The notes below the pieces were generated by a model, which saw nothing but the letters and a program-made list of their open reading frames with translations, did not search any database and had not been told where the DNA came from. Positions 1,099 through 32,734 of a stretch of 64,000 nucleotides of DNA are shown here, piece after piece. The DNA is taken from positions 1,727,159 to 1,791,158 of the forward strand of contig NZ_KE384547.1 of NCBI RefSeq assembly GCF_000426625.1. The letters are read 5' to 3'. How positions within the stretch are numbered: the stretch's first letter is position 1; every line of letters starts with the position of its first letter. A program made the position numbers and the translations under genes. Source of the stretch: Psychrilyobacter atlanticus DSM 19335 (GTDB lineage Bacteria; Fusobacteriota; Fusobacteriia; Fusobacteriales; Fusobacteriaceae).

Positions 1099-2637
1099 TT
1101 ATTTTGCCTTTCTTACTACATCTAATACAGTTCCATCTCTGTACTCGATTACTGCTACTATCTCATCGGTAAATTCAACTTCTCTTGGTTTACCTGTCAT
1201 AGTTTCAGCAATATTTTTTAACTCATCGATAGTCATAATCGGTAAGTTAGTTTCCTTCAATCTTTCGATTAATTCTGTTCTCTTAGGATTGATTGCTATC
1301 CCTCTTTCAGTTACTATTACATCCACAGTCTCCCCTGGAGTAGTCAGAGCAGTTACCCTGTCTTTTATAGCAGATATTCTAGAGTTAGCTAATTGTGTTA
1401 CGATTATAGCTAATTTAGCTCCAGCTGATGTATCTGCATGTCCACCAGAACCACCCATGATAGTACCATCAGAAGTAGTAGTTACATTTACATTAAAGTC
1501 TGTATCTATCTCTGTAGCTCCTAATATAACTATGTCTAATTTATTTACTACTGAACCTTTGTTATCTGCATTTGCATACATAGATGCTGACATAGTCATA
1601 TGTCCTGCATTTTCCTTAGCTGATTTTATAGCTGCCAAATCAAAACATTGTACATCAAATAGTGATTTAAATAACCCCTCTTTATACATGTCTACGATAT
1701 AACCAGTTATCCCTCCAGAAGCAAAACTTCCTTTGATATTATTTTCAATCATCTCAGCTTTCATGTCTGCCGCTACTGCTAGAGATACTCCTCCGGCTCC
1801 AGTCTGGAAACTCATCCCATCTTTAAAATATCCAGAGTTTTTAATTAATTCTGTAGTCATATTTGCTATTTTTAATCCAATTGGATTTTTAGTGATTTGA
1901 GTAGTTCCAGATACGATTCCGTTTGGATCTCCTATAGCACCTACCACTACTACATAGTCTATAAGTGTTTGAGGAATATCAATAGTTGTATTTGGATATT
2001 CTACCAAGTTATCTGTGATAGCCACTGTGATATCAGCAGTTTCTGCATCTGTATATGCATATCCCAACGCTCCACAAGCTGATTTTCCGTCTACACCATT
2101 TATGTTTCCATAATCATCCGATGTAGGAGCTGCTATAAAGGCTATATCGATACTTAAGTCTCCAGATTCCATTATTCTAGCTCTTCCACCATGAGTATGC
2201 ATTACTGCCGGGTTTTCTAATTTCCCAGCTGATATAGCTTCTGCTACTGGTCCTGAGATATATGCAGCATATATACTAGTTACTACTTTTTTTTCTATTA
2301 ATTCTACTAATTCACCATGACACGGGAAAATTGAACTTGCTGCAATAGTTATGTCTTTATAACCTCTCGCTGCTATCTTTTCCATTACCATATTTAAGAC
2401 AAAGTCTCCATTTCTTAAATGATGATGAAATGAAACTACCATCCCGTCTTTTAACGGTAATTTATCCAGTACTGTATCTAAATTATCGTGTAATTTTTCA
2501 TCTCCAGGTAAAACGTTTGTCATCTTGATTGATCTCTTAGTTTTTGTTCCTTTAGATGCCAAGTATCCACCATAGTGTTTTACTTCTCCATAACCTTTTA
2601 TGTTATCAGGTACTTCTCTACCTAAGATATTTTTCAT
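1099..2637 (-). CDS. citF: Citrate/citramalate lyase alpha subunit
   Basis: This 512-residue protein matches the usual length of CitF, the acyl-ACP:substrate CoA-transferase-like subunit. It moves the activated acetyl group of the lyase acyl carrier onto the incoming hydroxy acid. Glycine-rich stretches of the family are visible, such as SGTTQITKNPIGL near the middle and GGSGGHADTSAG near residue 400. CitE and CitD are encoded just upstream in the same direction. Because glutamate mutase and methylaspartate ammonia-lyase lie in the same cluster, the substrate is inferred to be (S)-citramalate, made from mesaconate, rather than citrate. No citC, citX or citG maturation gene is in the window. 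Start ATG at 2637 follows a plausible AAGGAG site. Confidence 0.93.
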   Translation of the reverse strand: MKNILGREVPDNIKGYGEVKHYGGYLASKGTKTKRSIKMTNVLPGDEKLHDNLDTVLDKLPLKDGMVVSFHHHLRNGDFVLNMVMEKIAARGYKDITIAASSIFPCHGELVELIEKKVVTSIYAAYISGPVAEAISAGKLENPAVMHTHGGRARIMESGDLSIDIAFIAAPTSDDYGNINGVDGKSACGALGYAYTDAETADITVAITDNLVEYPNTTIDIPQTLIDYVVVVGAIGDPNGIVSGTTQITKNPIGLKIANMTTELIKNSGYFKDGMSFQTGAGGVSLAVAADMKAEMIENNIKGSFASGGITGYIVDMYKEGLFKSLFDVQCFDLAAIKSAKENAGHMTMSASMYANADNKGSVVNKLDIVILGATEIDTDFNVNVTTTSDGTIMGGSGGHADTSAGAKLAIIVTQLANSRISAIKDRVTALTTPGETVDVIVTERGIAINPKRTELIERLKETNLPIMTIDELKNIAETMTGKPREVEFTDEIVAVIEYRDGTVLDVVRKAK

Positions 2638-2664
2638 ATTTAATTCTCCTTTTTATACTCTTTC

Positions 2665-2755
2665 CTGTTGTCGTTTTCCCTTCATAAAGGAAAACTATAG
2701 CTAAATATTTTAGCTTTAGTTTCTTTTGCGAAGAGAAACTATAGAAAGGAAGAGT
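2665..2755 (-). repeat. Intergenic palindromic repeat element, copy 2 (between citE and citF)
   Basis: The citE-citF gap contains two hairpins, GTTTTCC/GGAAAAC and TAGTTTCT/AGAAACTA. It ends at the citE stop with the minus-strand sequence GACTCTTCCTTTCTATAG, a close variant of the motif 3' of citF and of the nucleoside permease gene. No U-run follows, so read-through into citF is expected. Confidence 0.5.
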
Positions 2756-3625
2756 CTATTTTATTAATCCTATTACCCTAGCTGTATTCAATGTATTCAT
2801 AGCTCTACTTATAATAGGTGCATCTATCATCTTTCCATCCAAAGAAAATACTCCTAATCCCTCTTTTTCTGCTTCATCTTTAGCATACATAACTCTGTTA
2901 GCCCATGAAATCTCATCAGCTGTAGGAGAATATACCTTATGTATTGTATTTATTTGTCTAGGGTTTATAGATAGTTTTCCTGTAAATCCTAATTTTTTTG
3001 CATGAATTGTATCAGCTAATAGCCCTGCTTCATCATTAGTATCTGTAAATGGTGTATCTATCGCATCTATTTTTAATGCCTTACAAGCATTTACTACCTT
3101 TGTTCTCGCATAAAATAACTCTTCTGAATCTTTTGTTCTTGCAACTCCTAAGTCAGCTGCCAGGTCCTCTCCACCTAAACAAACTGAGTCTACTCTATTA
3201 CTCATTTGGATTGTCTCATAGACAGTTTCTACACCATATGTAGTTTCAACCAATGCATGGATTCTGATAATTCCTTCTTCGAATCCCTCTTCCTTTTCTA
3301 TTCTTGTTAACATCTCATCTAATTGTTTCATATCTTCAGGTGTTGCTTTTGGTAATAAGATAGCGTTTGGCTTCAATCTAGCCATTACATCTATATCTTC
3401 TAGTGCATACGGAGTTGAGAATGGATTTATTCTTATTACCACTTCTGTAGTTCCATAATTAAAAGTCTTCAATGCTCCCTTTATTAAGATTCTGGCTGCG
3501 TCTTTTTCTCCTAATGATACAGCATCCTCTAAATCTAATATAACTGAATCTGATCCAAAAACTTCAGCTGTCTGTAACATTCCTGGGTTATTTCCCGGCA
3601 TAAATAGCATACTTCTTCTTAACAT
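2756..3625 (-). CDS. citE: Citrate/citramalate lyase beta subunit
   Basis: A 289-residue HpcH/HpaI-aldolase-fold protein, the subunit that splits the acyl-ACP adduct; for citramalyl-ACP the products are acetyl-ACP and pyruvate. Family marks are the N-terminal LRRSMLFMPGNNPGML, the DLEDAVSLGEKDAAR segment near residue 30 and LGGEDLAADLGV near residue 150, which carry substrate- and Mg-binding residues. The start codon overlaps the citD stop region at 3625, showing translational coupling. Acts in the cytoplasm in a D-E-F complex. The citramalate assignment is inferred from context. Confidence 0.94.
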   Translation of the reverse strand: MLRRSMLFMPGNNPGMLQTAEVFGSDSVILDLEDAVSLGEKDAARILIKGALKTFNYGTTEVVIRINPFSTPYALEDIDVMARLKPNAILLPKATPEDMKQLDEMLTRIEKEEGFEEGIIRIHALVETTYGVETVYETIQMSNRVDSVCLGGEDLAADLGVARTKDSEELFYARTKVVNACKALKIDAIDTPFTDTNDEAGLLADTIHAKKLGFTGKLSINPRQINTIHKVYSPTADEISWANRVMYAKDEAEKEGLGVFSLDGKMIDAPIISRAMNTLNTARVIGLIK

Positions 3626-3891
3626 TACATCTCACCTGCCCTAGTTACTGCTGTTTCAATTCTAGCCTTTATTGTATAATCAAGAGCTCCCTTATCGATA
3701 GCTTTTATCATAGCATTTTCTACTCCTAATTCCTTTAAACTATTTTCTATTAAAGTTCTTATCTCTGTACCAAACTGTTTTTCTACAATACTTTCTAACT
3801 CTATCTCTATACCATTAGTCCCTGGCATCAACATTATTGAGATATCATTTGATTCTAATGTCCCTGCCTTAGCTGGTTTTAATATTTTCAT
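3625..3891 (-). CDS. citD: Citrate/citramalate lyase acyl carrier protein (gamma subunit)
   Basis: A small acyl carrier protein that bears the phosphoribosyl-dephospho-CoA group of the lyase. A frame is open from a GTG at 3900, but that GTG lies inside the AGAGGTG ribosome binding site. The ATG at 3891, six bases downstream, is the better start and gives 88 residues. With this start the conserved GTLES segment puts the attachment serine at position 14, the same number as in the classical enterobacterial CitD. The stop codon overlaps the citE start. Confidence 0.92.
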   Translation of the reverse strand: MKILKPAKAGTLESNDISIMLMPGTNGIEIELESIVEKQFGTEIRTLIENSLKELGVENAMIKAIDKGALDYTIKARIETAVTRAGEM

Positions 3892-4000
3892 TATTTTCAC
3901 CTCTATATTTTAATACCTGAAATTTTATCACCAAGAAATGGGATTTCAAGTTTTATTTTCATATCCAATTGTAATTTATTCCATCTATTAAAAACTAAGA

Positions 4001-4027
4001 AAAAGGTAGTTTTAAAAACTACCTTTA
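4001..4027 (-). terminator. Terminator downstream of methylaspartate ammonia-lyase gene
   Basis: Stem AAAGGTAGTTTT / AAAACTACCTTT followed on the minus strand by a T run. It lies between mal and citD, so citDEF may be partly uncoupled from the upstream genes or rely on read-through. Confidence 0.75.
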
Positions 4028-4043
4028 ATCTTAAAACTTTTAA

Positions 4044-5285
4044 TTATTTTCTGCTATTAACTAATGCTTCTACTCTGTTCATTTCGTTTCCTACGATCAT
4101 GATACCTTCGTCTACACCCATTCCTGGTTTAGCTAATACTTGTAATGCTCCACAAGCCATTGCTATATTTGTAGTTACTTCAGCTGATCTGTTAGTTTCG
4201 TTACAAGTTCCACCAACATAAGAACCGATTCCTTTTTCGTTACAGTATAATACTGCTTCTGCTATATTGTTTACTCCTCCTAAATCTGGAGTTTTAATTT
4301 GTACTACATGTCCTGCTTTTCTATCAGCGAATAATTTAATATCCTCTAATGTGTTACACCATTCGTCAGCAACTAATTCTACGTTGATTCCTCTTCTGTC
4401 TAATTCAGCAGTTAAAGCAGATAAAGCTTCTACAGTTCCTTCTCTTTCTTCTAAGTCCATAGGACCTTCGATTCTTAAGTGGAATGGCTTTGCAGCTTCT
4501 TCTAATTCAGCTAATAAATCAGCTTGCTTTGTGATATCTTGATCAAATGCTACTCCCATTGTTCCATATACATCAATGTGGAATATAGGCATATAATCTT
4601 CAGATTCTCTTAATTTTAATACTCTGTCGCTTAACCATTTTACGTAGTCTCTTAAGATAGATCCGTCTTTACCTAATTTAGTTTCAACATGGTTGATTAA
4701 TGCATGTGGCATGATGTCTGCACCTTTGATGATCATCTTGTCTGCATTGTTCTTTCTGTCGTCTCCAGATTGAGTGAATAATGGTAATCTTTTGATTGTT
4801 ACGTCAGTTGCATATTCTTTTTTAATTATTTCTGCCATAGTCATCTTGTTTACTTTTGCTGCGGCATCTAAGATAGCTTGACTTAATCCGTATCTAATAG
4901 CTGTATGTAATCTATTTCCATTTAATTCCATTGTATCTACTTCTTCAGCTAATGGTCTGAATTCATTTACATCTCTTCCAATTAATTTTGGAGCGATTTC
5001 GTTTTTGATAACTGGGATAAAATCAGATGCTAAGAATAATGGATCTCTTCCACCTGCACCAGAATATTGTACTGCTGCACAATCTCCGTGAGCTACTTGT
5101 CCGTCTTCTAAGATAAACATTACAGAGATAGATTCTCCTGCTTGTCTGATTCTTGTAAATCCTTCAGTAACTGGTTCTCCTACGTAATCAAAACCGTCAT
5201 GACCTGCTCCTGCCTTTATAGCTCTTTGGTCGTCAAAATAAAATCCTGTCTTTCCTGCTGAACAAATGATATCAATAATTTTCAT
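4044..5285 (-). CDS. mal: Methylaspartate ammonia-lyase
   Basis: Converts (2S,3S)-3-methylaspartate to mesaconate and ammonia, the step after glutamate mutase. The ATG at 5285 (nine bases after AAGGAG) gives 413 residues, the length of the clostridial enzyme; an earlier ATG at 5294 lies inside the ribosome binding site. With this numbering the known catalytic residues fall in register: His194 (MPHALINH), Lys331 (VQIKTPD) and Mg ligands Asp238, Glu273 and Asp307. The protein is an enolase-superfamily TIM barrel. Neighbours are murI upstream and the lyase genes citDEF downstream. Confidence 0.97.
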   Translation of the reverse strand: MKIIDIICSAGKTGFYFDDQRAIKAGAGHDGFDYVGEPVTEGFTRIRQAGESISVMFILEDGQVAHGDCAAVQYSGAGGRDPLFLASDFIPVIKNEIAPKLIGRDVNEFRPLAEEVDTMELNGNRLHTAIRYGLSQAILDAAAKVNKMTMAEIIKKEYATDVTIKRLPLFTQSGDDRKNNADKMIIKGADIMPHALINHVETKLGKDGSILRDYVKWLSDRVLKLRESEDYMPIFHIDVYGTMGVAFDQDITKQADLLAELEEAAKPFHLRIEGPMDLEEREGTVEALSALTAELDRRGINVELVADEWCNTLEDIKLFADRKAGHVVQIKTPDLGGVNNIAEAVLYCNEKGIGSYVGGTCNETNRSAEVTTNIAMACGALQVLAKPGMGVDEGIMIVGNEMNRVEALVNSRK

Positions 5286-5315
5286 GTGATACATCTCCTT
5301 TTATATTCGATTAAT

Positions 5316-6110
5316 TTAGTTTAATGCCTGTTTGATTTTTTTTATCGGTTTTCCCAATATTTTTTCTGCTATCTTTTGAAATTTGTTGATGTTGCCCGAG
5401 GTGTAAAAAGAAACCTTCCCCTTTGAATCTCTTTTATTTAAGAGTTTTAGCTTTTTTAGGAGTTCCTCTACCTCTAATGCTGTTTCTTTGGCTGGATCTA
5501 CAATCTTTTTCCCCTTTAATTCCCTTATAAAGTATTCCTCTATAATGGGGTAGTGGGTACACCCAAATACCACAACATCTATTTCTGTGGGCAAGCGATC
5601 CACATAAGATCTTATTAATGCTTGATTTTTTTCTGTATCTTCCCATCCAGATTCTATCATTGGAACAAGTGGTTCACATCCAATCTGATAGACTTTTACC
5701 TCTTTGTTTATCCTTTGGGCTTCATTTTTATAAGCATCTACCTTTGCCGTAAGCGGTGTAGAGAGAATGCCTATTTTATTTGTTTTGGTTAATTCCAGTG
5801 CCTCTCTTGTCCCATAGGCTATTACTCCTATTGTAGGAACCGATATCTTTTCCTGTAATTCCTTTAAACACACTACTGTAGCTGTATTACAGGCTATCAC
5901 TAAAAGTTTGATATCCAGACTTTCTAAGAATTTACCTATGTTTAGACAAAAATTTGAGATTTCTTCAGGATCTCTTGATCCATAAGGAGCTCTTAAATTA
6001 TCTCCAAAATATATTAAATCTTCATGGGGTAAGATCTTTTCTATCTCTTTTAAAACAGTCAGTCCTCCTACCCCAGAATCAAATATCCCTATTGCTCTTT
6101 TATCTACCAT
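5316..6110 (-). CDS. murI: Glutamate racemase (copy 1, within glutamate-fermentation cluster)
   Basis: A 264-residue cofactor-independent racemase interconverting L- and D-glutamate. The two catalytic cysteines are present: Cys74 (VIACNTATVV) and Cys184 (VFGCTHYPII), with the N-terminal FDSGVGGLTVL motif. The usual role is D-glutamate for peptidoglycan. A second murI lies at 35586..36416, so this copy may instead feed D-glutamate into the L-glutamate mutase pathway; that role is inference from position only, between gltS and mal. Confidence 0.95.
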   Translation of the reverse strand: MVDKRAIGIFDSGVGGLTVLKEIEKILPHEDLIYFGDNLRAPYGSRDPEEISNFCLNIGKFLESLDIKLLVIACNTATVVCLKELQEKISVPTIGVIAYGTREALELTKTNKIGILSTPLTAKVDAYKNEAQRINKEVKVYQIGCEPLVPMIESGWEDTEKNQALIRSYVDRLPTEIDVVVFGCTHYPIIEEYFIRELKGKKIVDPAKETALEVEELLKKLKLLNKRDSKGKVSFYTSGNINKFQKIAEKILGKPIKKIKQALN

Positions 6111-6182
6111 AAATCCTATCTCCTAATATTATAATTTTTATTGTATAAAAATTATACTATTTTTAATAAAATTTTAACAGGT

Positions 6183-7379
6183 TTATCCAAACATATTCAT
6201 GAAGAAAGTAATTATCGATGCATTGGCAAAGTCAATAAATAATGCCCCTACTAACGGTATTACGAAAAACGCTTTAAATGATGGATAGTTTGCTGCTGTA
6301 AATGATTCCATGTTTGCTATTGCATTTGGTGTAGCACCCATTCCAAATCCACAATGACCACAAGCCATTACTGCTGCGTCATAGTCTCTACCCATTACAT
6401 TAAATGTAATAAAGTATGCAAATGCTCCCATTAATACAGTTTGTACTAATAATATAGTTACTAATGGTACTGCTAAAGCCGCTAAATCCCATAATCTCAT
6501 AGACATAAGTGCCATAGCTAGGAATAATGATAATGAAGTATTTCCAATAATAGTGATCTCTTTATGATTTAATTCTTTCTTCATTGAATCCGATATATTT
6601 CTAATAACTGCTGCTACTAACATTGGACCGATATAGATAGGTAAAGTAATTCCCACTGTCTTTAACCATCCTACTAATACTGATCCTATTCCCATAGAAA
6701 TAATAATAACTGTAGCTGCATTGAAGAATGTATGTTCTGTAACATCTACTATTTGATTTTCATCTGTTATGTCAGCATGTTCTTCCTTCAGTAACTCCTC
6801 ATTTAGTTTCAAGTTAAACTTATTCATAAGTCTTTTTCCAATTGGTCCACCAATTAGACATCCTGCAACTAAACCATATGTAGCCGATGCTATTGCAACT
6901 GCTGTTGCACCTGCTGCTCCTGCCTGCTCTAATAACGGCCCGAACGCACCTGAAGTTCCATGTCCACCTGTAAGCGGTATCGATCCTGCTGCTAAACCAA
7001 ATAATGGCGGTAATCCAAAGACCTTAGCCAGTGATATACCAACTATATCTTGAAGAATTACTAAAGCTGTTGCTGCTACTAAGAATATTACAACTTGTAC
7101 TCCACCCTTAGCTAACAGTTTGAAACTAGCCATGAATCCAATAGTTGTAAAGAACGCTATCATAAATAAACTTTTTAATGTGCCGTCAAAGCTAAATTCG
7201 AAGGTATTCGTATAGTGACCAATTAGAGTTAATATTGCAAAAATAACTCCCCCAATAACTGGTACTGGTATAAAGAATCTTCTCAATACCCCAACTTTAC
7301 TCCTTACAAATCTACCTACTAATAATACTATAACGGCCATAAATAATGTCGCTATATTGTCCATTTGAAATACTTGCAT
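6183..7379 (-). CDS. gltS: Sodium/glutamate symporter
   Basis: A 398-residue, hydrophobic GltS-family permease with about ten membrane spans. It has the two glycine-rich, re-entrant-like regions of the family (GLAAGSIPLTGGHGTSGAFGP near residue 130 and CGHCGFGMGATPNAIANM near residue 340). It imports glutamate with Na+. Placement between the glutamate mutase genes and methylaspartate ammonia-lyase makes it the entry step of the pathway. The gap to glmE contains only a weak hairpin. Confidence 0.95.
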   Translation of the reverse strand: MQVFQMDNIATLFMAVIVLLVGRFVRSKVGVLRRFFIPVPVIGGVIFAILTLIGHYTNTFEFSFDGTLKSLFMIAFFTTIGFMASFKLLAKGGVQVVIFLVAATALVILQDIVGISLAKVFGLPPLFGLAAGSIPLTGGHGTSGAFGPLLEQAGAAGATAVAIASATYGLVAGCLIGGPIGKRLMNKFNLKLNEELLKEEHADITDENQIVDVTEHTFFNAATVIIISMGIGSVLVGWLKTVGITLPIYIGPMLVAAVIRNISDSMKKELNHKEITIIGNTSLSLFLAMALMSMRLWDLAALAVPLVTILLVQTVLMGAFAYFITFNVMGRDYDAAVMACGHCGFGMGATPNAIANMESFTAANYPSFKAFFVIPLVGALFIDFANASIITFFMNMFG

Positions 7380-7444
7380 TTTTTCCCCCTTTTAATTCTA
7401 TGTATGTGTATTTTTGTGACTTTCACTCTCCCCTTTTTTTCAAG

Positions 7445-7471
7445 AAAAGGCAGACTATAAATCTACCTTTT
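7445..7471 (-). terminator. Weak hairpin between glmE and gltS
   Basis: Minus-strand stem AAAAGG-AGA / TCT-CCTTTT with one mismatch. The U-run is interrupted (CTTG) before further T, so it may only attenuate transcription into gltS. Confidence 0.4.
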
Positions 7472-7503
7472 CATTAAAAATTTTGTTAGCTATTTATTTT
7501 TTA

Positions 7504-8961
7504 TTAATTTTTTTCAGGTCTTCCGATTAAGTTTCCTTTTCCTACTGCAAATATATCATCTACTGTCATTTGGAATCCAATCTCTCTTCCTTCAAAATCA
7601 GCTCTTTTTTGTAATTCAGCTTTATTAAATGCTTTGATCTCATCTGTGAATGGAAGGTTTCCGCACTCTAAATATCTAATTCTACCTTGGTTGTCTCTAG
7701 CTGGTAACATTTTTCCTAAGTTTATCTTAGCTGGTGCGAATGGAATATCAATTACACCTTGTTTAACTGCTTCGATTGTACCAAGAGCTAAATCTCCATT
7801 TCCAAGGTCATATACCTTATCCATGATACACTTGATCTCTGCTTTTATTTGCTTGATCTCTTTATCTAATTCTTCAGAATCAGGTAATGTTTGACCATCT
7901 AATAAGTTTAATACCATCTTAGTTGCTTTTATAGCGTTGGCATTAGCTTCCTTTGTAGGGATACCGATAGCTTCATGAGTAGTCTTTACGATTACTTTTG
8001 TTGCACCAGATAATCTAGCTGCACATGCTCCGTTTGAGATTACACCATAAGCTTTAGATTCATCTTCTGGGAATCCTCCCATCCATTGATGGAAAACTGT
8101 AGTTAATTGCATATCTTTATATCCTAATTTTTCACAGTATTCTTCAGCTAATTCTTGTAATGTTCTGATAGCTGCTACGTCTTGAACTAAGTTTCCACAT
8201 TGTCCGTATCCTAAAGTGATACTCTTAACTCCTTGCTCTGCTGCTAATAAACATTCTATTAATTGTACTGCATTTGAGATTGATACTGGAACTAATGTTC
8301 CTGTTAATGGTCCGTAAGGTTCTCTATTGATAGAAACTCCTTGCTCCTCATACCATCCTACTAATCTATCTATATACTGCCAGTCTCTTATTGTTCTTTC
8401 CATAGATACTGATTTAGCATATGGTAAGTTATAAGAAATTCCTCCACCTTCATATGAAGTCCATCCAGAAGACATTGTGATCTCAGCTAATAATCTTGCA
8501 TCAGGAGTTCCATGTCTTACTTGTAGCGGCTTGTCAACTGATTCTAATACTCTTTTACAACCTTTCACTCCGTAGTTTACACCTGGGAAACCATTTAATA
8601 ATGATCTTCCTGCTTTTTCAGACTCTTTAATTCCTCTTTCACACTCTTCGTATCTGTTTAATCTAGTATATGAATCTATAGTTGATGGTAATAAATCTGC
8701 TCCACCTTCTTTAGATAGGAAGTTTAATAATTCTATATGTTCGTTTAATAATGCTACTCCAGCTCTTGGTTGTGCTAATGTTTTTCCCTCTTGCTTAGCT
8801 GTCCATAATTTTTTAGCAAAGTTTTTATGATCAGGTAATTCCTTTAGGTATTGAACACCTTCAGCTAGGTCTACCTCTTCACCTGTAGGCCATTGCTTTA
8901 AAACTTCCTCTCTTACTTTAAAAAATTCTTCCTCTGTCCACTTTTTATTTTTAATATTCAT
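7504..8961 (-). CDS. glmE: Glutamate mutase epsilon subunit
   Basis: The large subunit of coenzyme-B12-dependent glutamate mutase, which rearranges L-glutamate to (2S,3S)-3-methylaspartate. A longer frame starts at 8991, but the ATG at 8961 sits correctly behind AGGAGG and gives 485 residues beginning [13 protein letters not shown], close to clostridial GlmE in length and start. The body is the TIM barrel that binds substrate and the adenosyl end of the cofactor. The ribosome binding site overlaps the glmL stop, so the two are coupled. The partner subunit GlmS is encoded two genes upstream. Confidence 0.96.
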
Positions 8962-8974
8962 TAATATTATCCTC

Positions 8975-10396
8975 CTAATTAACTCTCTCAAGATATTTTT
9001 TCATTATTCTTACTGCCATATCCGGTTTTTCTCCTGCAAGGAGTCCCATAGCAGACAATATATATGTACTGTCAATTAAATAATTTGGTGATCTAGGTAG
9101 TAGGTGTATAGGCTGTTCTTTATTAAATTCCCCTGCTTTTAATATGTTTCTAGGGTTTTCACTATGTACCAATACTCCACCTGTTCCAATTACATATTTG
9201 ACATCTAAAAGGTCTTTTCCATGTTGATAGTACATTACTCCCATTGGAGTAAATACACTTTCTAACCATCCACAGTGTCTTATCATTGCAATTTCAGTTC
9301 CTGCTCCTGCCATCCCTTCATCGAAAAATATTTCTTCAGGTGTTTGTGGAACCATCATAATATTTTCATGTCTGTGATTACAGTGCGCTTTTACATCAAT
9401 CTCTTTATGATCATCATGTAGATATTTTCTTATTTTTTTTGTTCCTGCTGCTTCTAATAGTGATAGTGCAGAGTATCTCATACCGAGATCCCCTTCAACA
9501 GTTCTTTTAGCAAAAGGTTCTTCTAAACCTTTTGGAATTACACCTGCATTACTAGGGTCACCCTCTGCCAATGAATGGATATCTGTAGTAGCACCACCGA
9601 TATCTACAACCATTAAGTTTCCTAACCCTTCTTCATCATCACTACCAAGAGCAAGTACTTCTGCAGCTTTTAATACAGCTGCTGGGGTAGGCATAAGTAT
9701 TCCAGATATAAAGTCTTCGGCATTTTTCATCCCTTTAGCTTCTACTATCCTTGTCATAAATATCTTTCTTATAGCTTCCCTTGTTGGTTTTTCATTTATC
9801 TTATTTAGTTTTGGCATAACATTTTCTGTTACTATATAATCTATATTTGCATCATCAAATATCTCTATAATTTCGTCGTTAGCACTTTTGTTTCCAGCTA
9901 ATAATACAGGTATCTTTATCTTTACTTCTGCTATCAATTTAGCATTATGTACGATACATTTTTTATTTCCGCCATCTGTTCCACCTGCTAACAATAATAT
10001 ATCGGCATCTGAATTTTTTATTTCTTCAATTTCACTATGATTTAATTCATAAGAATAAGTTTTCATAACTCTAGCTCCTGCACCTAGGGCAGCTTTTTTG
10101 GCAGCATCCGCTGTAAGCTCAGGCACAAGACCTATTGCATACATCTTCAATCCACCAGCAGCCGAAGAACAAGCTATTTTTTTTATAAAATTAATATCCT
10201 CAAATATTACATTTTTTTTCTCTATACATAATTTAAGTTTTTGATATGCTTTTTCAAATCCGATCATTATGTCATCTTCAATTGTAGTTATGTCTTTAGC
10301 AGTAGCCAATATCTCTTCAGTCTCTACATCAACGGCTGTTAATTTAGTATAGGTACTTCCAAAGTCAATCAATAAGTAGGCATTCATTTCTACCAC
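8975..10396 (-). CDS. glmL: Glutamate mutase reactivating ATPase (MutL/GlmL)
   Basis: A 473-residue ASKHA/DnaK-fold protein. The N-terminal phosphate-binding loop reads [16 protein letters not shown], and a second one, [19 protein letters not shown], lies near residue 265. Proteins of this family lie between glmS and glmE and are thought to reactivate or chaperone the B12 mutase by exchanging damaged cofactor with ATP hydrolysis. Its end overlaps the glmE ribosome binding site. The role is established for the family rather than shown in the sequence. An in-frame ATG two residues in from MVEMNAYLL is an alternative start. Confidence 0.93.
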
Positions 10397-10433
10397 TCCT
10401 AATTTTTATAGTGCATCATTTTTTATTTCTTTA

Positions 10434-10853
10434 TTACTTAATCATTCCTAAATCTTTTTTCATATCTTCAGCTGTAACTTCAATAGGTGTTCCTGGTTTG
10501 TATACTCTATCGAATCCCATATCTAAGAATCTTTTATTTACATCTTCCCAAACTTGCTTTCCTACTACGATATTTCCACCAACGTATAATTTAACATCTT
10601 GTAATCCTGCTTCATTACACTTTTCTTTAAATCCTTGACAATCTAATTCTCCATGGCCATATAATGAAGAGATGATGATTGCATCTGCGTCAGTTTCTAC
10701 TGCTGCATTTATGAAATCTTCTTGTGGTGAAATAACTCCTACATTGATTACATTGAACCCTTGTTGTGTTAATACATGGTCAATAATCTTATTTCCAACT
10801 GCATGACAGTCCGATCCAATTACTCCGATTACTATAGTCTTTCCATTTTTCAT
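10434..10853 (-). CDS. glmS: Glutamate mutase sigma subunit (B12-binding)
   Basis: The 139-residue cobalamin-binding subunit of glutamate mutase. The base-off/His-on motif DxHxxG is seen as D15-C-H17-A-V-G20, with His17 the expected lower cobalt ligand, followed by the later glycine-rich part of the Rossmann-like domain. The start is preceded by GGAGGTC. It is the first gene of the glutamate-fermentation cluster; no cobalamin riboswitch could be recognised in the 350-base region upstream. The symbol glmS here is the mutase gene, not glucosamine-6-phosphate synthase. Confidence 0.96.
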
Positions 10854-27490: not shown

Positions 27491-28633
27491 TTATTGTTTC
27501 ACCCTTTTTTCAGTTTCTTTAATAAGAATTACCGTTTTCTTCTTTAACCTTCTACTAATACTCTTGTAACACATTATCACCAACAGGATACCACCAAGAT
27601 ACCCATTGATAACATAAACAATGTTCACAAGTTTATCAAAAGGAAGCCATATTCCAATAAAGAAACCTAAAGTAGCTAGTGAACATGTAAGAACTTTAAA
27701 TGACTTTGTGCCCTCTACAGTAAATCTCGCTGAGACACTCCAAAGTAAAGGAACTGCTGTGGAGAAAATTCCTGCTAAGATTATTAGAGCAAATATACTG
27801 GAAAACAGTGGATGAATATTGTTAGCAAGGTAAAGCATTGGGATTTGTGTACCGGCTGTCGTATTGATAGACGACAGTAGCCCCAAGGTGATAACCACTA
27901 CTGCCAGGGAGAACAGAGCTCCTCCAAGGATCCCTCCAGATTTAGCTTCTAACGAACTTTGAGCCTTTGCTCCTAAAGAAGCCAGGAATCCGGCTAACCA
28001 AAGCATACAGAAACCAACATATGAAAAAGCAGCTAAATACCATGATGATGATGCCTTCACCAGTTTTTCGGAAGATTTCAAAGATTCTATGGACAAGGAC
28101 ACTGTTTTGGGATCTAGGTTTGCATAGTTCTTGACGATAGCTACAAGACCTACACAAATTGCGATAGCAACTATAATAGGCCCGACTCTTCCAACGATTT
28201 CAACTATCCTAGACAATCCTCTAAGTACTGTGATTAAAGACAAAGAAACTATTAAAAGTCCACCAACTATCGCCGGTGTCCCATAATGCTGAGTCATGGT
28301 AGCAGATGCACCTGCTACCATGACTACAAAAGACATAAAACAAAATATTGTTGAAAAATAATCAAAGAAGAACCCTAATTTTTCTCCACAATAGTATTTA
28401 TAGATGTCGTTACCTTTTTCAAATTTCTCCCTGTGCCCAACCTCTAAAAAACTAGAGCAGACATATACTAAGAGTAGAAAAACAACAGCAGAACCCGCTA
28501 ATCCTAAGTAACCATAACCGGCAAAATACTGTAAGATTTCTTGTCCGGTCGCAAATCCTGAACCTATCAGAAAAGCAATTATAGCTCCACCAAACATCAT
28601 GACAGTTTTTTTATTGATTTTTTCGTTTACCAT
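27491..28633 (-). CDS. YkvI-type membrane transporter
   Basis: A 380-residue, ten-span protein of the YkvI family (LeuT-like amino-acid/cation symporter fold, mostly uncharacterised). The ATG at 28633 follows AAGGAGG; an upstream in-frame extension to 28738 has no support. The first span reads FGGAIIAFLIGSGFATGQEI, a typical unwound-helix glycine motif. It lies 175 bases downstream of the selenoprotein reductase gene in the same direction, but a hairpin terminator separates them. It is the best candidate for the substrate importer of that reductase; this is inference. Confidence 0.78.
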   Translation of the reverse strand: MVNEKINKKTVMMFGGAIIAFLIGSGFATGQEILQYFAGYGYLGLAGSAVVFLLLVYVCSSFLEVGHREKFEKGNDIYKYYCGEKLGFFFDYFSTIFCFMSFVVMVAGASATMTQHYGTPAIVGGLLIVSLSLITVLRGLSRIVEIVGRVGPIIVAIAICVGLVAIVKNYANLDPKTVSLSIESLKSSEKLVKASSSWYLAAFSYVGFCMLWLAGFLASLGAKAQSSLEAKSGGILGGALFSLAVVVITLGLLSSINTTAGTQIPMLYLANNIHPLFSSIFALIILAGIFSTAVPLLWSVSARFTVEGTKSFKVLTCSLATLGFFIGIWLPFDKLVNIVYVINGYLGGILLVIMCYKSISRRLKKKTVILIKETEKRVKQ

Positions 28634-28750: not shown

Positions 28751-28793
28751 AAAAAAATATTTTTTCTCAAGCCCTTTACCACGGGCTCAAGAA
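28751..28793 (-). terminator. Terminator of the grdX-grdE-grdB operon
   Basis: Minus strand: TTCTTGAGCCC pairs with GGGCTTGAGAA (11 pairs, two G-U), loop of eight bases, then an A/T-rich tail with seven T. It lies just after the selenoprotein stop codon at 28809. Confidence 0.75.
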
Positions 28794-28808
28794 AAAATAA
28801 TCAATTAT

Positions 28809-30119
28809 TTATTCAAATTCAGTTATACCAGAAACCTCTGTAGATAAAGCATCTACGGCTCTTTTTACAAGACTATATTTTAATTCTCCCTCTTCCTTAG
28901 AAGAAAGTTTTGGGTTTCCTACTGGATGTGGTATTGCAATAGTCGGAACAATTCTATTTGCACCTACTGATTTAGATATAGTGGTAATTGTAGACATATG
29001 AACTACCGCTATTCCAAATCTTTCTATTTCTTTCAAGATCGTTGCACCGCAACGAGTACAAGTTCCTCAGGTAGAAGTCATGATTACTCCATCCACACCA
29101 TCTGCTTTGAGTAACTCACCCATCTCTTTTCCAAACTTAACGGCATTCCCTACAGATGTTCCTGTTCCTGTAGTCGTATAGAAATATTTCTCTACTTTTC
29201 CTATTTGACCTTCAGCTTCAAGTTTTTTTAACATTGCAAGAGGTGCTACTCTATCTGGATCTTCATTTGCATACACAGGGTCAAACCCTCCATGAATAGT
29301 AATAAATCCTGCTTCCTTGAGACTATCAAATTCATTTATATCATATCTTCCCCATATTTGGGCACTGGCTGATTGAATCCTGTCTGGGTTACCTTTTGGT
29401 ACCATTCCACCAGTTGTAATTAAAGCAATAGTCGCCTTAGTTATATCTTTAATCGCATCTGCCGGATCTACTGTATCAAACACAGGCATTGGAAGTTCTG
29501 TTGTAAATTCTCTTCCATTTAATCTGTCTAAAAGCATATCTACAGCTCTTTCAGATCCTCTTTTCTCTACAAAGATTGTTTTTCTCTTCCCTTGAGGAAT
29601 ATACCCATCTTCTTTAGGTAATCCTAATTCTTCTCCAGCTACTATTTTTTTCACAATTGCTGCCATTGATTTTAAAGCTTTACGCATACCACCGGCCGAA
29701 GCCCCTGTTTCAGCAACTATAACTTTAGCTTTGCAAAGTTCAACTGCCGGGTTTTCAATATACATTCCTGTTATTGCTGGAATTTTTAATTCCTCTATCA
29801 CATATTTGGCAATTTCTCCACACGCCATCCCATATCTTCCTGCATTGAAAGCTGGCCCTGTTACAACTATGTCTGGTTTAGCGTCTTTTATCATTTTACT
29901 AATCTGTGCCATAGCATCTTCTTTTTTTTCATTGAAATAGTTATCTCCACAAATTACAGTTCCAACTACTTCTCCCTCTCCTTTTAATAAAGCATCAAAA
30001 GCCGTTGCCGGTCCTACATTTCCCTCTATAAATTGAGGCTTCATTCCTGCTTTATCTTCTCCACCTATTTGACCAAAAAACTGATTCAAATAATATACTA
30101 CTTTAAACTTTTTTTCCAT
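28809..30119 (-). CDS. GrdB-like selenoprotein B of glycine/sarcosine/betaine reductase (in-frame TGA = selenocysteine)
   Basis: Two frames, 29067..30119 and 28809..29066, are in the same phase and separated only by TGA at 29067..29069. Read through, the junction is VIMTSTUGTCTRCGATILKE, the selenocysteine site of GrdB-family proteins, with U at residue 351 of 436, the family length. The start is the ATG at 30119 behind GGAGGGG. GrdB with processed GrdE forms substrate-specific protein B, which binds the amino-acid substrate and passes a carboxymethyl group to selenoprotein A. Sarcosine (GrdF) and betaine (GrdH) versions share this layout, so the substrate is undetermined. A SECIS-like hairpin follows the TGA. 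Confidence 0.93.
29039..29069 (-). promoter_or_regulatory. UGA codon and bacterial SECIS element
   Basis: The TGA is at 29067-29069. Eleven bases later a 7-bp stem TCGTTGC / GCAACGA (29055-29049 with 29045-29039) encloses a GGT loop. The loop starts 18 bases after UGA and has G in the first positions, matching the known bacterial SECIS rules (short stem, guanines at the loop start, 16-37 base spacing). SelB is expected to bind it. Confidence 0.85.
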
Positions 30120-30145
30120 TATATATTCCCCTCCAGTCATAGTTA

Positions 30146-31432
30146 TTAATATAATTTAGATGTACAATTATGATATCCAATCTCTGATGTTGCTCCTATT
30201 ATTGCGTTTAACTCACATTGAAAACTTCCATCTTCTAGAAGTGAACCTTCCCATCCTCCTGCTAAGGTAGATATGGCTTCCATATTTCCTAAAATTACGT
30301 CTGCAGGTGGTAGAGTAACCAAGTGACTTACATTTCCTCCTGAAACTACCGCAACTGCTTCTTTTGCTGTATCTGCAAGCGACTGAGACATTCCATCTCT
30401 TCCAGCACATTCATCAGTAATTAAAACTGTTTTTATTCCTGAATCTTCCAATCTTTTACAGATCATCAATAGATCTGTATCTGGATTTCCGTATCCCTCT
30501 TCCGATACAATAACTCCGTCAGCTCCTACCATCTTACATAATTTAGCTGTATAATCACATGTTCTGATCTTCCCCGCTAAAGTTGTTAATTCTGGAGTTA
30601 ATACAACACCTAAAAAGTTTAATTCCTTTCCGTGTTTTGCATATAAATCTTTCATAACCGGATTGTTTTGATGTTGGTAAGTTGTTATTTTATCACAGGC
30701 AGCTACACAGTTCCCACTGATAACCGCTCCATCCAACTCTTCATTTGGATGTAATAATGTCGGTAATATCTGTTGACTGTTTACACCATATATATAACCG
30801 TCATGTAATAATCCTTGAGATATCAACATTTCTACATACAGAACTTTTGGTAAGTCAGGATATTTTGCAATCTCTTCCACCATGCTTCCAGTTTCATAAA
30901 CTTCAACCTCATCTGGTTCTATCTCTCTTCCTGCTTCTCCAATAAATGCAGCGGCTTTTAGTCCCGCCATTCTGACAACATCTTCATGAACATGAGGTTC
31001 TAAACCATCTATAGGAATAATCTCTACTACTAGATTTAATGTCTTAGAAAAGGGAGTCCATTTAGCACCTTCGCCCCACATATCAATTACACCTTCTTGA
31101 AATCCTACAATATCTCCTATGGTTACCACTGCAACACCATTTAATATATTAACTTTCCCTTCTCCTGCTTGAGTTACTTTTGCTAATACACCTGGAAATT
31201 GATCTCCTTCCCCTTCAATTTTTACCCTTGGTTCAATAGCATCTTTTACAGGAATAATTCTTACCTTCTCTCCCGGTCTTGCTATATCAATCTTTACTTC
31301 TTTAATTTTATTATTTGTTTTTAACTCAGCTACTACTTCTTCCTTGTTTACAAATAACACTCCATTCACTACTTCTGTTTTTTCTCCAAACTGTATATCC
31401 TTAATATTAATTTTTCTATGTTCTAACTTCAA
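30146..31432 (-). CDS. GrdE-like pyruvoyl proprotein of reductase protein B
   Basis: The best start is a TTG at 31432, five bases behind GGAGGTG. It gives 428 residues, the length of GrdE, and puts the cleavage cysteine of AVISGNCVAACDKI at residue 242, as in the characterised glycine reductase proprotein. Autocleavage there should give two subunits, one with an N-terminal pyruvoyl group that binds the amine substrate as a Schiff base. Sarcosine (GrdG) and betaine (GrdI) forms look alike. The grdB-like gene follows 26 bases later and grdX precedes it. D-proline reductase PrdA is much longer, so that is excluded. Confidence 0.9.
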   Translation of the reverse strand: MKLEHRKINIKDIQFGEKTEVVNGVLFVNKEEVVAELKTNNKIKEVKIDIARPGEKVRIIPVKDAIEPRVKIEGEGDQFPGVLAKVTQAGEGKVNILNGVAVVTIGDIVGFQEGVIDMWGEGAKWTPFSKTLNLVVEIIPIDGLEPHVHEDVVRMAGLKAAAFIGEAGREIEPDEVEVYETGSMVEEIAKYPDLPKVLYVEMLISQGLLHDGYIYGVNSQQILPTLLHPNEELDGAVISGNCVAACDKITTYQHQNNPVMKDLYAKHGKELNFLGVVLTPELTTLAGKIRTCDYTAKLCKMVGADGVIVSEEGYGNPDTDLLMICKRLEDSGIKTVLITDECAGRDGMSQSLADTAKEAVAVVSGGNVSHLVTLPPADVILGNMEAISTLAGGWEGSLLEDGSFQCELNAIIGATSEIGYHNCTSKLY

Positions 31433-31470
31433 AATGACACCTCCAAAATTTTTAAAAAGACATTGCATTA

Positions 31471-31830
31471 TTATTTAATTTCCCCAAGTGCAGATTCTAA
31501 AAGCTTATAGTCAACGATTGCATAATCTTTAGAATTTTTAATATCCTCTTCTCTCACCCCCATATGCTGATTATATTTTTCAATACTTGATTCAATAATT
31601 TCAGTATGAAAACAATTTAACTTTCCCTCTTTTTCCTTAACTATTACAGAAAAATATGGTGAAAACATCATTCTCAAGCTGGCCCCCAATGGATGAGTCA
31701 ACAACTCACTCCCACTATGAACCAAATCTCTTACCTTTTCTAGTAGCTCCCTCGATGTACCTTCAATAAAATAAACATTATCAAATTTTTCTTTAACCAT
31801 TGGATTATTACTTACTATTAAACATTCCAA
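31471..31830 (-). CDS. grdX: GrdX family protein
   Basis: A 119-residue cytoplasmic protein of the GrdX family, found in glycine, sarcosine and betaine reductase operons and of unknown biochemical role. The start is a TTG at 31830 behind AGGAGGAGGG. Recognisable are the opening ECLIVSNNPMV, the GTSRELLEKVRDLVH helix and the central HPLGASLRMMFSPYFSVIV. First gene of a three-gene operon with the GrdE-like and GrdB-like genes. Confidence 0.82.
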   Translation of the reverse strand: MECLIVSNNPMVKEKFDNVYFIEGTSRELLEKVRDLVHSGSELLTHPLGASLRMMFSPYFSVIVKEKEGKLNCFHTEIIESSIEKYNQHMGVREEDIKNSKDYAIVDYKLLESALGEIK

Positions 31831-31863
31831 AGAACCCTCCTCCTAAAAATACTTTTATTCTAT

Positions 31864-31910
31864 TTGTTGTATACTTGTTGTATTTTTATCTTATATCAGG
31901 AGTATACATT
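31864..31910 (-). promoter_or_regulatory. Paired GTATAC sites upstream of grdX
   Basis: Two palindromic GTATAC cores at 31869-31874 and 31902-31907, 33 bases apart (about three helical turns). Each is embedded in TTGTATACTTG- or GAGTATACAT-like sequence, as in operators of FCD-type GntR regulators. The gntR gene next to it is the likely partner. A direct repeat TTGTTGTAT also occurs at 31864-31872 and 31875-31883. Confidence 0.5.
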
Positions 31911-32050
31911 ACAATTTTATATTATCCAAATTTTTTTTGATTTTTTTTTCACATAATTAAAGTTAATAAAAATCAACATCTATGTTGGCTTCAACCACAG
32001 TATTTAAAATGTTTAATGTATTAAATCATTTTATAATTCCCAGGACAATA

Positions 32051-32084
32051 AAAAAATCCGAGAAATAATTCTCGGATTTTTTTT
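32051..32084 (-). terminator. Terminator of the gntR gene
   Basis: A 14-bp stem AAAAAATCCGAGAA / TTCTCGGATTTTTT with four-base loop, separating gntR from the grd operon downstream. Confidence 0.92.
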
Positions 32085-32095
32085 ATTAATTTTAT

Positions 32096-32734
32096 TTAAA
32101 GCATCTCTTTTTTGATTTTTTCAACAAAAACATCTATATGCTCACGGGCATATTTTTCTGCTTTGTCTCTATCTTTTTCCTTTATAGCTGTAAGAATCTT
32201 CCCCAATGTTTCGGTGAAAATTTCCATTGAGTCTATATGATCTTCAGAATAATGCCACAATCTTTCAGTATGAATATGCAAATTAGAAAGTATCTCTTCT
32301 AGACATGTATTCCCACAATTCTCTAAAATTATCTTATGAAATTTTTCATCCTCTGAAATAGCTTTTTGATAGTCCTCCTCAATATTATATTGGAGAAGGT
32401 TATTATATATTTCTTCAAGTTTAGAAATTTCTTCTTCTGAAATTTTATCTACACACAGCTTTGTGGCAAGGCTGTCAAATTCTCTGGTTATTTCAAATAC
32501 TGACTTCATATATTTAAAATCAATATGTGAGACCTGAGCCCCATACCTTGGTATAATTTTAAGTAATTTATTACTGTTTAACCTTTGAAATATCTCTCTT
32601 ATAGGTGTCCTGCTTATTTCAAATTCATTTCCAATATCAACCTCATTTAAAACTATTCCAGGTTCATATTTAATTTGAATAATTCTATCTTTTAAAATAT
32701 TATATATTTCATCTGTTGTAATCTTTTTTTTCAT
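32096..32734 (-). CDS. GntR-family (FCD subfamily) transcriptional regulator
   Basis: A 212-residue regulator. Residues 1-70 form the winged helix-turn-helix (IYNILKDRIIQIKYEPGIVLNEVDIGNEFEISRTPIREIFQRL). The rest is an all-helical FCD ligand domain with metal-binding His residues (EKFHKIILENCG, HTERLWHYSEDH). FCD regulators usually respond to organic or amino acids. Its position just upstream of the reductase operon, and paired GTATAC sites there, suggest it controls that operon in response to the substrate. Confidence 0.88.
   Translation of the reverse strand: MKKKITTDEIYNILKDRIIQIKYEPGIVLNEVDIGNEFEISRTPIREIFQRLNSNKLLKIIPRYGAQVSHIDFKYMKSVFEITREFDSLATKLCVDKISEEEISKLEEIYNNLLQYNIEEDYQKAISEDEKFHKIILENCGNTCLEEILSNLHIHTERLWHYSEDHIDSMEIFTETLGKILTAIKEKDRDKAEKYAREHIDVFVEKIKKEML

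Follow-up and report, generated by a model that had tools for sequence, protein, structure and literature searches.

The chemistry and mechanism of the glycine, sarcosine and betaine reductase family are reportedly established, through the work of Andreesen. Among the closest described systems, Clostridium sp. FS41 carries the genes of a sarcosine-specific subunit B, along with a hypothetical gene, in a cluster separate from the genes of proteins A and C (PMC4417704); this hypothetical gene is probably grdX. In 'Candidatus Formimonas' DCMF, the B genes adjoin the A and C genes in a cluster annotated as GrdG/GrdF, with the order trxB-trxA-grdA-grdC-grdD-grdX-B, which is induced on betaine (PMC9768040). 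This organism forms acetate and monomethylamine from betaine, and acetate and methylamine from sarcosine plus H2 (PMC8163858); its pair clusters with the Sporomusa sarcosine reductases (PMC6778437). In our study, a window of 64,000 nucleotides of Psychrilyobacter atlanticus DSM 19335 (C2:1727159-1791158; genome of 3.54 Mb in 3 contigs) has been analyzed, in which five genes lie entirely on the minus strand: gntR, grdX, a GrdE-type proprotein, a GrdB-type selenoprotein and a YkvI-type transporter. Functionally, this locus is probably a GrdG/GrdF, a sarcosine reductase protein B that stands alone with a dedicated regulator and importer, the substrate being assigned from genomic context.

The arrangement as such is widespread and largely known, and since split sarcosine-specific B loci have been published (PMC4417704), the locus adds a member to a known type, to which the standard databases assign no substrate. 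As in FS41, the sarcosine-type B genes stand apart from those of A and C, whereas the DCMF layout is the same as that of two other members of the window clade described below (L076 and L078). Unlike FS41, Sporomusa and DCMF, the window locus has its own GntR regulator and YkvI transporter and occurs in a fusobacterium. One of the two plasmid loci of Peptoclostridium acidaminophilum (L051) resembles it, with grdX-grdG-grdF followed by a YkvI-type gene and no adjoining grdC, grdD or thioredoxin genes; its regulator, however, is of the sigma-54 type instead of GntR, and its GrdG is 54% identical. What is new is that the clade members tested fail every curated substrate-specific model, and the lineage looks distinct from the GrdG/GrdF of P. 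acidaminophilum and C. difficile.

Identity of the protein B and its partner genes

The locus belongs to the glycine/sarcosine/betaine reductase protein B family, as it encodes a PF09338 proprotein with the processing cysteine and a PF07355 protein with the UxxCxxC motif and a selenocysteine insertion sequence (SECIS) element. An earlier sequence-only reading of this DNA had named all five genes, with Cys242 as the cleavage site, and this was confirmed, with unambiguous matches in Pfam, NCBIfam and Rfam for the regulator, GrdX and the two protein B genes. The five genes occur in this order also in two congeners and in Propionigenium maris, and hence the locus is not an assembly artefact.

The same reading had described an interchangeable, separately regulated protein B lacking the genes of proteins A and C and thioredoxin, and this has been borne out: no grdA, grdC, grdD or trx gene was found within the window, so these parts must be borrowed from elsewhere. 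A whole-genome search located two further GrdE/GrdB-type pairs, each in a full cluster. The glycine-type cluster (L012, C2:168-187 kb) has the order grdX-trxB-trxA-grdE-grdA-grdB-grdC-grdD, and its GrdB clears the curated glycine model (682.3 bits, cut-off 602.2). The betaine-type cluster (L013, C3:197-217 kb) holds a BCCT transporter, trxB, trxA, grdA, grdC and grdD, and its GrdH clears the betaine model (816 bits, cut-off 775). There are exactly two GrdA genes in the genome, one at C2:176 kb and one at C3:212 kb, along with selD-selA-selB at C3:149-154 kb and D-proline reductase genes. Thus proteins A and C, thioredoxin and the selenocysteine machinery needed by the window protein B are present in the cell, and with two full clusters there are two sources for the A, C and thioredoxin parts.

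A full cluster just beyond the borders of the window, which would have made the locus merely its edge, is ruled out: the window locus lies at C2:1.757 Mb, the closest full cluster on the same contig is 1.58 Mb away and the other is on a different contig. The missing A, C and thioredoxin genes might also suggest the decaying remnant of a full cluster, but the chance of this is negligible, as every reading frame and the SECIS element are intact, another genus retains the five-gene unit with 70-87% identity, and clade members as a rule stand alone (38 of 50 loci without grdA nearby).

The two full clusters of this genome share nearly identical genes: grdC-grdD are 98.0% identical in DNA over 2908 bp, trxB-trxA 99.3% over 1278 bp and grdA 91.9%, whereas their protein B genes are not near-identical. 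The common genes point to recent duplication or gene conversion between contigs. The glycine-type cluster (L012:3101-19501) is flanked by a 5S rRNA gene on one side and a 16S-23S rRNA operon on the other, and glycine riboswitch aptamers are found close to both full clusters. The selD gene (L189:6130-7209; C3, about 149.1-150.2 kb) is itself an apparent selenoprotein gene with an in-frame TGA, reading GGGUTSKIGPG near the N-terminus, and its plain open reading frame begins only downstream of this TGA.

Phylogenetic analysis

A maximum likelihood tree was built from 105 concatenated GrdE and GrdB pairs (860 columns), along with a reduced tree of 48 tips, the loci being drawn from named genomes, their relatives and the genomes of clade members. 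The window pair falls in a clade of 50 tips (the window clade), apart from the glycine-type clade and from the betaine GrdI/GrdH clade; it is not nested in the glycine-specific GrdE/GrdB, as a separate module required. In the full tree the ultrafast bootstrap value was 100 for 49 of the 50 tips and 69 for all 50, and in the reduced tree it was 100 for all sampled members; the five fusobacterial sequences join at a support of 100. Members come from Fusobacteriota, Bacillota, Actinomycetota, spirochaetes and Calditrichota, and include Propionigenium maris, Tissierella, Clostridium ultunense, Acidaminobacter, Sporomusa, Desulfosporosinus, Parvimonas, Peptostreptococcus, Facklamia, Olsenella, a Treponema and a Calditrichales member.

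In the full tree, the GrdG/GrdF pairs of P. acidaminophilum (two loci) and C. difficile, together with a pair from another genome of the window's order (L050), join the glycine-type clade and not the window clade. A grouping of P. acidaminophilum GrdG/F with the window clade was rejected only weakly: the approximately unbiased (AU) test rejects it (p=0.030), and the Shimodaira-Hasegawa test does not (p=0.080). A monophyletic glycine type beside P. acidaminophilum-type GrdG/F was not rejected (AU p=0.38), so that the latter may be nested inside the glycine type or be its sister. In the small set of genomes examined, none carried a P. acidaminophilum-type and a window-clade pair together. From these comparisons, two separate sarcosine lineages appear likely but are not proven. 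A fuller proposal, which we put forward tentatively and hold less firmly than the substrate itself, is that one sarcosine protein B lineage lies within or beside the glycine type (P. acidaminophilum, C. difficile) and the other is the window clade, with the YkvI-type importer family and a few residues common to both.

One divergent pair lies outside the three main clades. In Tissierella praeacuta (L173:2331-10139; G062:C25) a GrdE/GrdB-type selenoprotein pair (48% and 51% identity) is accompanied by a sigma-54 regulator, an opine-dehydrogenase-like protein, an NhaC-like antiporter and alanine dehydrogenase, and is a candidate protein B of undescribed specificity.

Curated models and specificity residues

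The window GrdB reached 575.1 bits on the glycine model TIGR01917 (cut-off 602.2) and 548 bits on the betaine model NF040795 (cut-off 775), below the cut-off in each case. Likewise, none of four more clade members tested (L046, L059, L076 and L098) clears any substrate-specific curated model. The P. acidaminophilum and C. difficile GrdF proteins reach 854 on the curated sarcosine model.

The catalytic features are conserved throughout: UGTCTRCG is invariant in 104 of 104 sequences of the four groups compared, and both UGTCTRC and GNCVAACD are kept in all 50 window-clade members. Other positions divide the groups. GrdB position 319 is threonine in the window clade, the P. acidaminophilum type and the betaine type but asparagine in the glycine type (44/44), and position 275 is alanine in all 44 glycine-type sequences and isoleucine, threonine or valine in the others, with isoleucine in the window protein. 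The same split is seen at GrdE 314 (numbered from the TTG start; 315 in a second numbering), where tyrosine stands against phenylalanine. The window pair has the same residues at GrdB 275 and 319 as P. acidaminophilum GrdG/GrdF, and the residues common to both proposed lineages are GrdB T319 and mostly I275, and GrdE Y314 and A244 (from the TTG start). The published motifs are IHGGYDR ... TTGTGTx7F for GrdF and AHGG and TxGNxT for GrdB (PMC9751293). The window sequence, IHGGFDP ... TTGTGTx7F, matches the GrdF motif in part (IHGG and TTGTGTx7F) and does not match that of GrdB.

In the predicted GrdB model (pLDDT, the predicted local distance difference test score, 91.9; predicted template modelling score, pTM, 0.58), positions 275 and 319, like Sec351, are placed in loops that follow beta strands, and the two may have a role in specificity. 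A fold search with this model gave only weak matches of low template modelling score, and a PDB sequence search with GrdE or GrdB gave no match.

These data bear on whether the locus encodes an isozyme of the L012 enzyme, as a further glycine reductase protein B under separate regulation. The two resemble each other in protein families, processing cysteine, UGTCTRCG and SECIS, with GrdE 53% and GrdB 56% identical and the catalytic motifs the same. Nevertheless, L012 differs in being a full cluster with glycine-type residues and a score above the glycine cut-off, whereas the window pair lies outside the glycine clade, below that cut-off, and has T319/I275 in place of N/A. Further, most of the clade genomes examined already carry a glycine-type pair, which argues against a second glycine enzyme and fits a substrate other than glycine. 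The isozyme, rejected by tree, cut-off and residues, is given very little probability. The betaine reductase of the same genome (GrdI/GrdH, L013) shares the family and the selenocysteine motif, but differs in its BCCT transporter, its full cluster, its score above the betaine cut-off and an identity of 42/48% to the window pair.

Genomic neighbourhood and the substrate

Neighbours were counted within 7.5 kb of the pair at 50 window-clade and 44 glycine-type loci. The general expectation of the sequence-only reading, that A, C and thioredoxin genes usually share the cluster with protein B, holds for the glycine-type loci (grdA nearby in 37 of 44) and fails in the window clade (12 of 50). A GntR regulator is nearby in 22 of the 50 clade loci, a YkvI transporter in 23 and an NSS-family transporter in 10, and in none of the 44 glycine-type loci; BCCT transporters occur in 4 of the 50. 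A stand-alone layout with regulator and transporter is, by these counts, the habit of the clade. The YkvI partner had been thought unusual for such a locus, and this did not hold, as it is the commonest transporter of the clade and also follows the annotated P. acidaminophilum GrdG/GrdF. The window YkvI protein is 49% identical to the product of that gene, 3' of grdG-grdF on the megaplasmid, and its own gene, the single match in the whole genome, is the sole copy. A literature search for the transport substrate of YkvI gave no paper.

Sarcosine-forming enzymes are found beside clade members, though not at the window locus itself. In seven clade loci, of Clostridium ultunense, Tissierella praeacuta, Syntrophaceticus, Lagierella, Atopococcus, Aerococcus and Facklamia (Tissierellia, Clostridia and Bacilli), an isochorismatase-fold hydrolase and a D-hydantoinase stand beside the pair. 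The one hydrolase tested has N-carbamoylsarcosine amidohydrolase (1nba, E=1e-62) as its best PDB match, and both of the two hydantoinases tested are above the TIGR02033 cut-off. Such neighbours would convert N-methylhydantoin to sarcosine, by the route through N-carbamoylsarcosine described in anaerobes that degrade creatinine or N-methylhydantoin (PMC5364220, PMC4417704). In six clade loci, which include two Sporomusa species, Desulfosporosinus and Thermacetogenium, the pair adjoins MttB-family methyltransferases, in most cases accompanied by a corrinoid protein; glycine betaine methyltransferase (PDB 9yce, E=3e-63) is among the two best matches of these enzymes. The order trxB-trxA-grdA-grdC-grdD-grdX-B is seen at several of these loci, and the genome of Sporomusa malonica has a window-clade protein B only. 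Earlier, the substrate had been left as glycine, sarcosine, betaine or something undescribed; the hydantoinase/amidohydrolase neighbours, the MttB neighbours and the YkvI-type gene shared with P. acidaminophilum GrdG/GrdF narrow this, by clade-wide context, to sarcosine.

Another N-substituted glycine or a broader set, such as N,N-dimethylglycine or sarcosine plus others, is the least improbable of the alternatives, though still unlikely. The clade transporters vary, I275/T319 are also found in betaine-type GrdH, and MttB demethylase neighbours suit betaine and dimethylglycine too. On the other hand, the hydantoinase/amidohydrolase neighbours give sarcosine specifically, and the DCMF organism, which reduces sarcosine with H2, forms monomethylamine and not trimethylamine from betaine (PMC8163858). 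An undescribed substrate is more improbable than any of the substrates above: the failure of the tested clade members on the curated models would agree with it, and a model exists for a fluoroacetate reductase (FarE, NF053623), evidence that the family can adopt new substrates, but context indicates sarcosine in several bacterial groups and no neighbour consistently hints at another compound.

Several points weigh against sarcosine. The scores on the curated sarcosine models fall far short of the cut-offs (582 of 780 bits on NF040793 and 600 of 800 on NF040794), and the HGGFDP of the window GrdB differs from the HGGYDR of GrdF at the Y and R positions. Most clade loci, the window locus included, have no diagnostic sarcosine-forming neighbour, and compared with glycine-type loci such neighbours are only modestly enriched (p 0.03-0.06). 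The clade sample was picked by similarity to the window, and of the described FS41, Sporomusa and DCMF systems the tree samples two Sporomusa species other than S. ovata. Moreover, no N-carbamoylsarcosine amidohydrolase homologue was detectable in this genome, so that sarcosine would need an external source.

The second P. acidaminophilum grdG-grdF locus (L180:4515-10798, megaplasmid) has a BCCT transporter, an M24-family gene and grdA alongside and no annotated YkvI-type gene. The M24 family includes creatinase.

Proposed mechanism

Applying the family chemistry to this locus by inference, sarcosine would be imported by the YkvI-type protein, and GntR would sense the substrate and release the grdX unit, perhaps through the ATACAACAAGTATACAACA site. 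Cleavage of the proprotein before Cys242 would produce a pyruvoyl subunit binding the amine of sarcosine; the selenol of the GrdB-type subunit would then attack the alpha carbon, with methylamine leaving. The carboxymethyl group would be passed to GrdA from the glycine or betaine cluster, GrdC/GrdD from those clusters would yield acetyl phosphate, and thioredoxin would restore the enzyme.

In this way an anaerobe would gain a further substrate for an energy-conserving selenoenzyme by acquiring just a new substrate-binding half. A testable substrate, sarcosine, is proposed for a widespread protein group lacking a curated assignment, and an uncharacterised YkvI transporter type is tentatively tied to it. 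A few residues are also named whose exchange between glycine type and sarcosine type would bear on how specificity is set; if the two lineages are real, GrdB T319 and I275 and GrdE Y314 and A244 are the candidate determinants of substrate choice.

Locus organization

The features are collected in Table 1. A strong hairpin between gntR and grdX sets the regulator gene apart from the grdX unit, and the candidate operator is found, unchanged or with small changes, 5' of grdX at four loci from two fusobacterial genera. The GrdE-type gene has GGAGGT ahead of its TTG start, and Cys242 lies within GNCVAACD. The SECIS_4 element was detected in five related loci as well (L043, L045, L046, L059 and L076). 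Because a hairpin also separates the GrdB-type gene from the transporter, transcription of the latter may be weaker than that of the enzyme genes, or separate from it.

Table 1. Features of the protein B locus, in positions of the 64,000-nt window
Feature	Position	Strand	Evidence or remark
GntR/FCD-family regulator gene	32096..32734	-	Pfam PF00392 + PF07729
Terminator-like hairpin 3' of gntR	32050..32083	not assigned	perfect 15-bp stem
Candidate operator ATACAACAAGTATACAACA upstream of grdX	31866..31884 (approximate)	-	putative function
grdX, TTG start	31471..31830	-	NCBIfam NF038093, 111.9 bits vs cut-off 40
GrdE/GrdG-type proprotein, 428 aa, TTG start	30146..31432	-	PF09338, 659 bits; processing site before Cys242
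GrdB/GrdF-type selenoprotein, 436 aa	28809..30119	-	PF07355, 532 bits; UGTCTRCG; translation with TGA=U
In-frame TGA (selenocysteine) codon of GrdB-type gene	29067..29069	-	
SECIS element (SECIS_4) directly 3' of TGA	29029..29066	-	Rfam RF01990, 46.7 bits, E=9.3e-8
Terminator-like hairpin between GrdB-type gene and transporter	28758..28799	-	
YkvI-type membrane transporter, proposed substrate importer	27491..28633	-	beyond the edge of the 28809-32734 piece

Elsewhere in the window, at 1099-10853, a glutamate-fermentation set was read from the translations, with citramalate-lyase-like subunits, methylaspartate ammonia-lyase, glutamate mutase subunits and a glutamate symporter.

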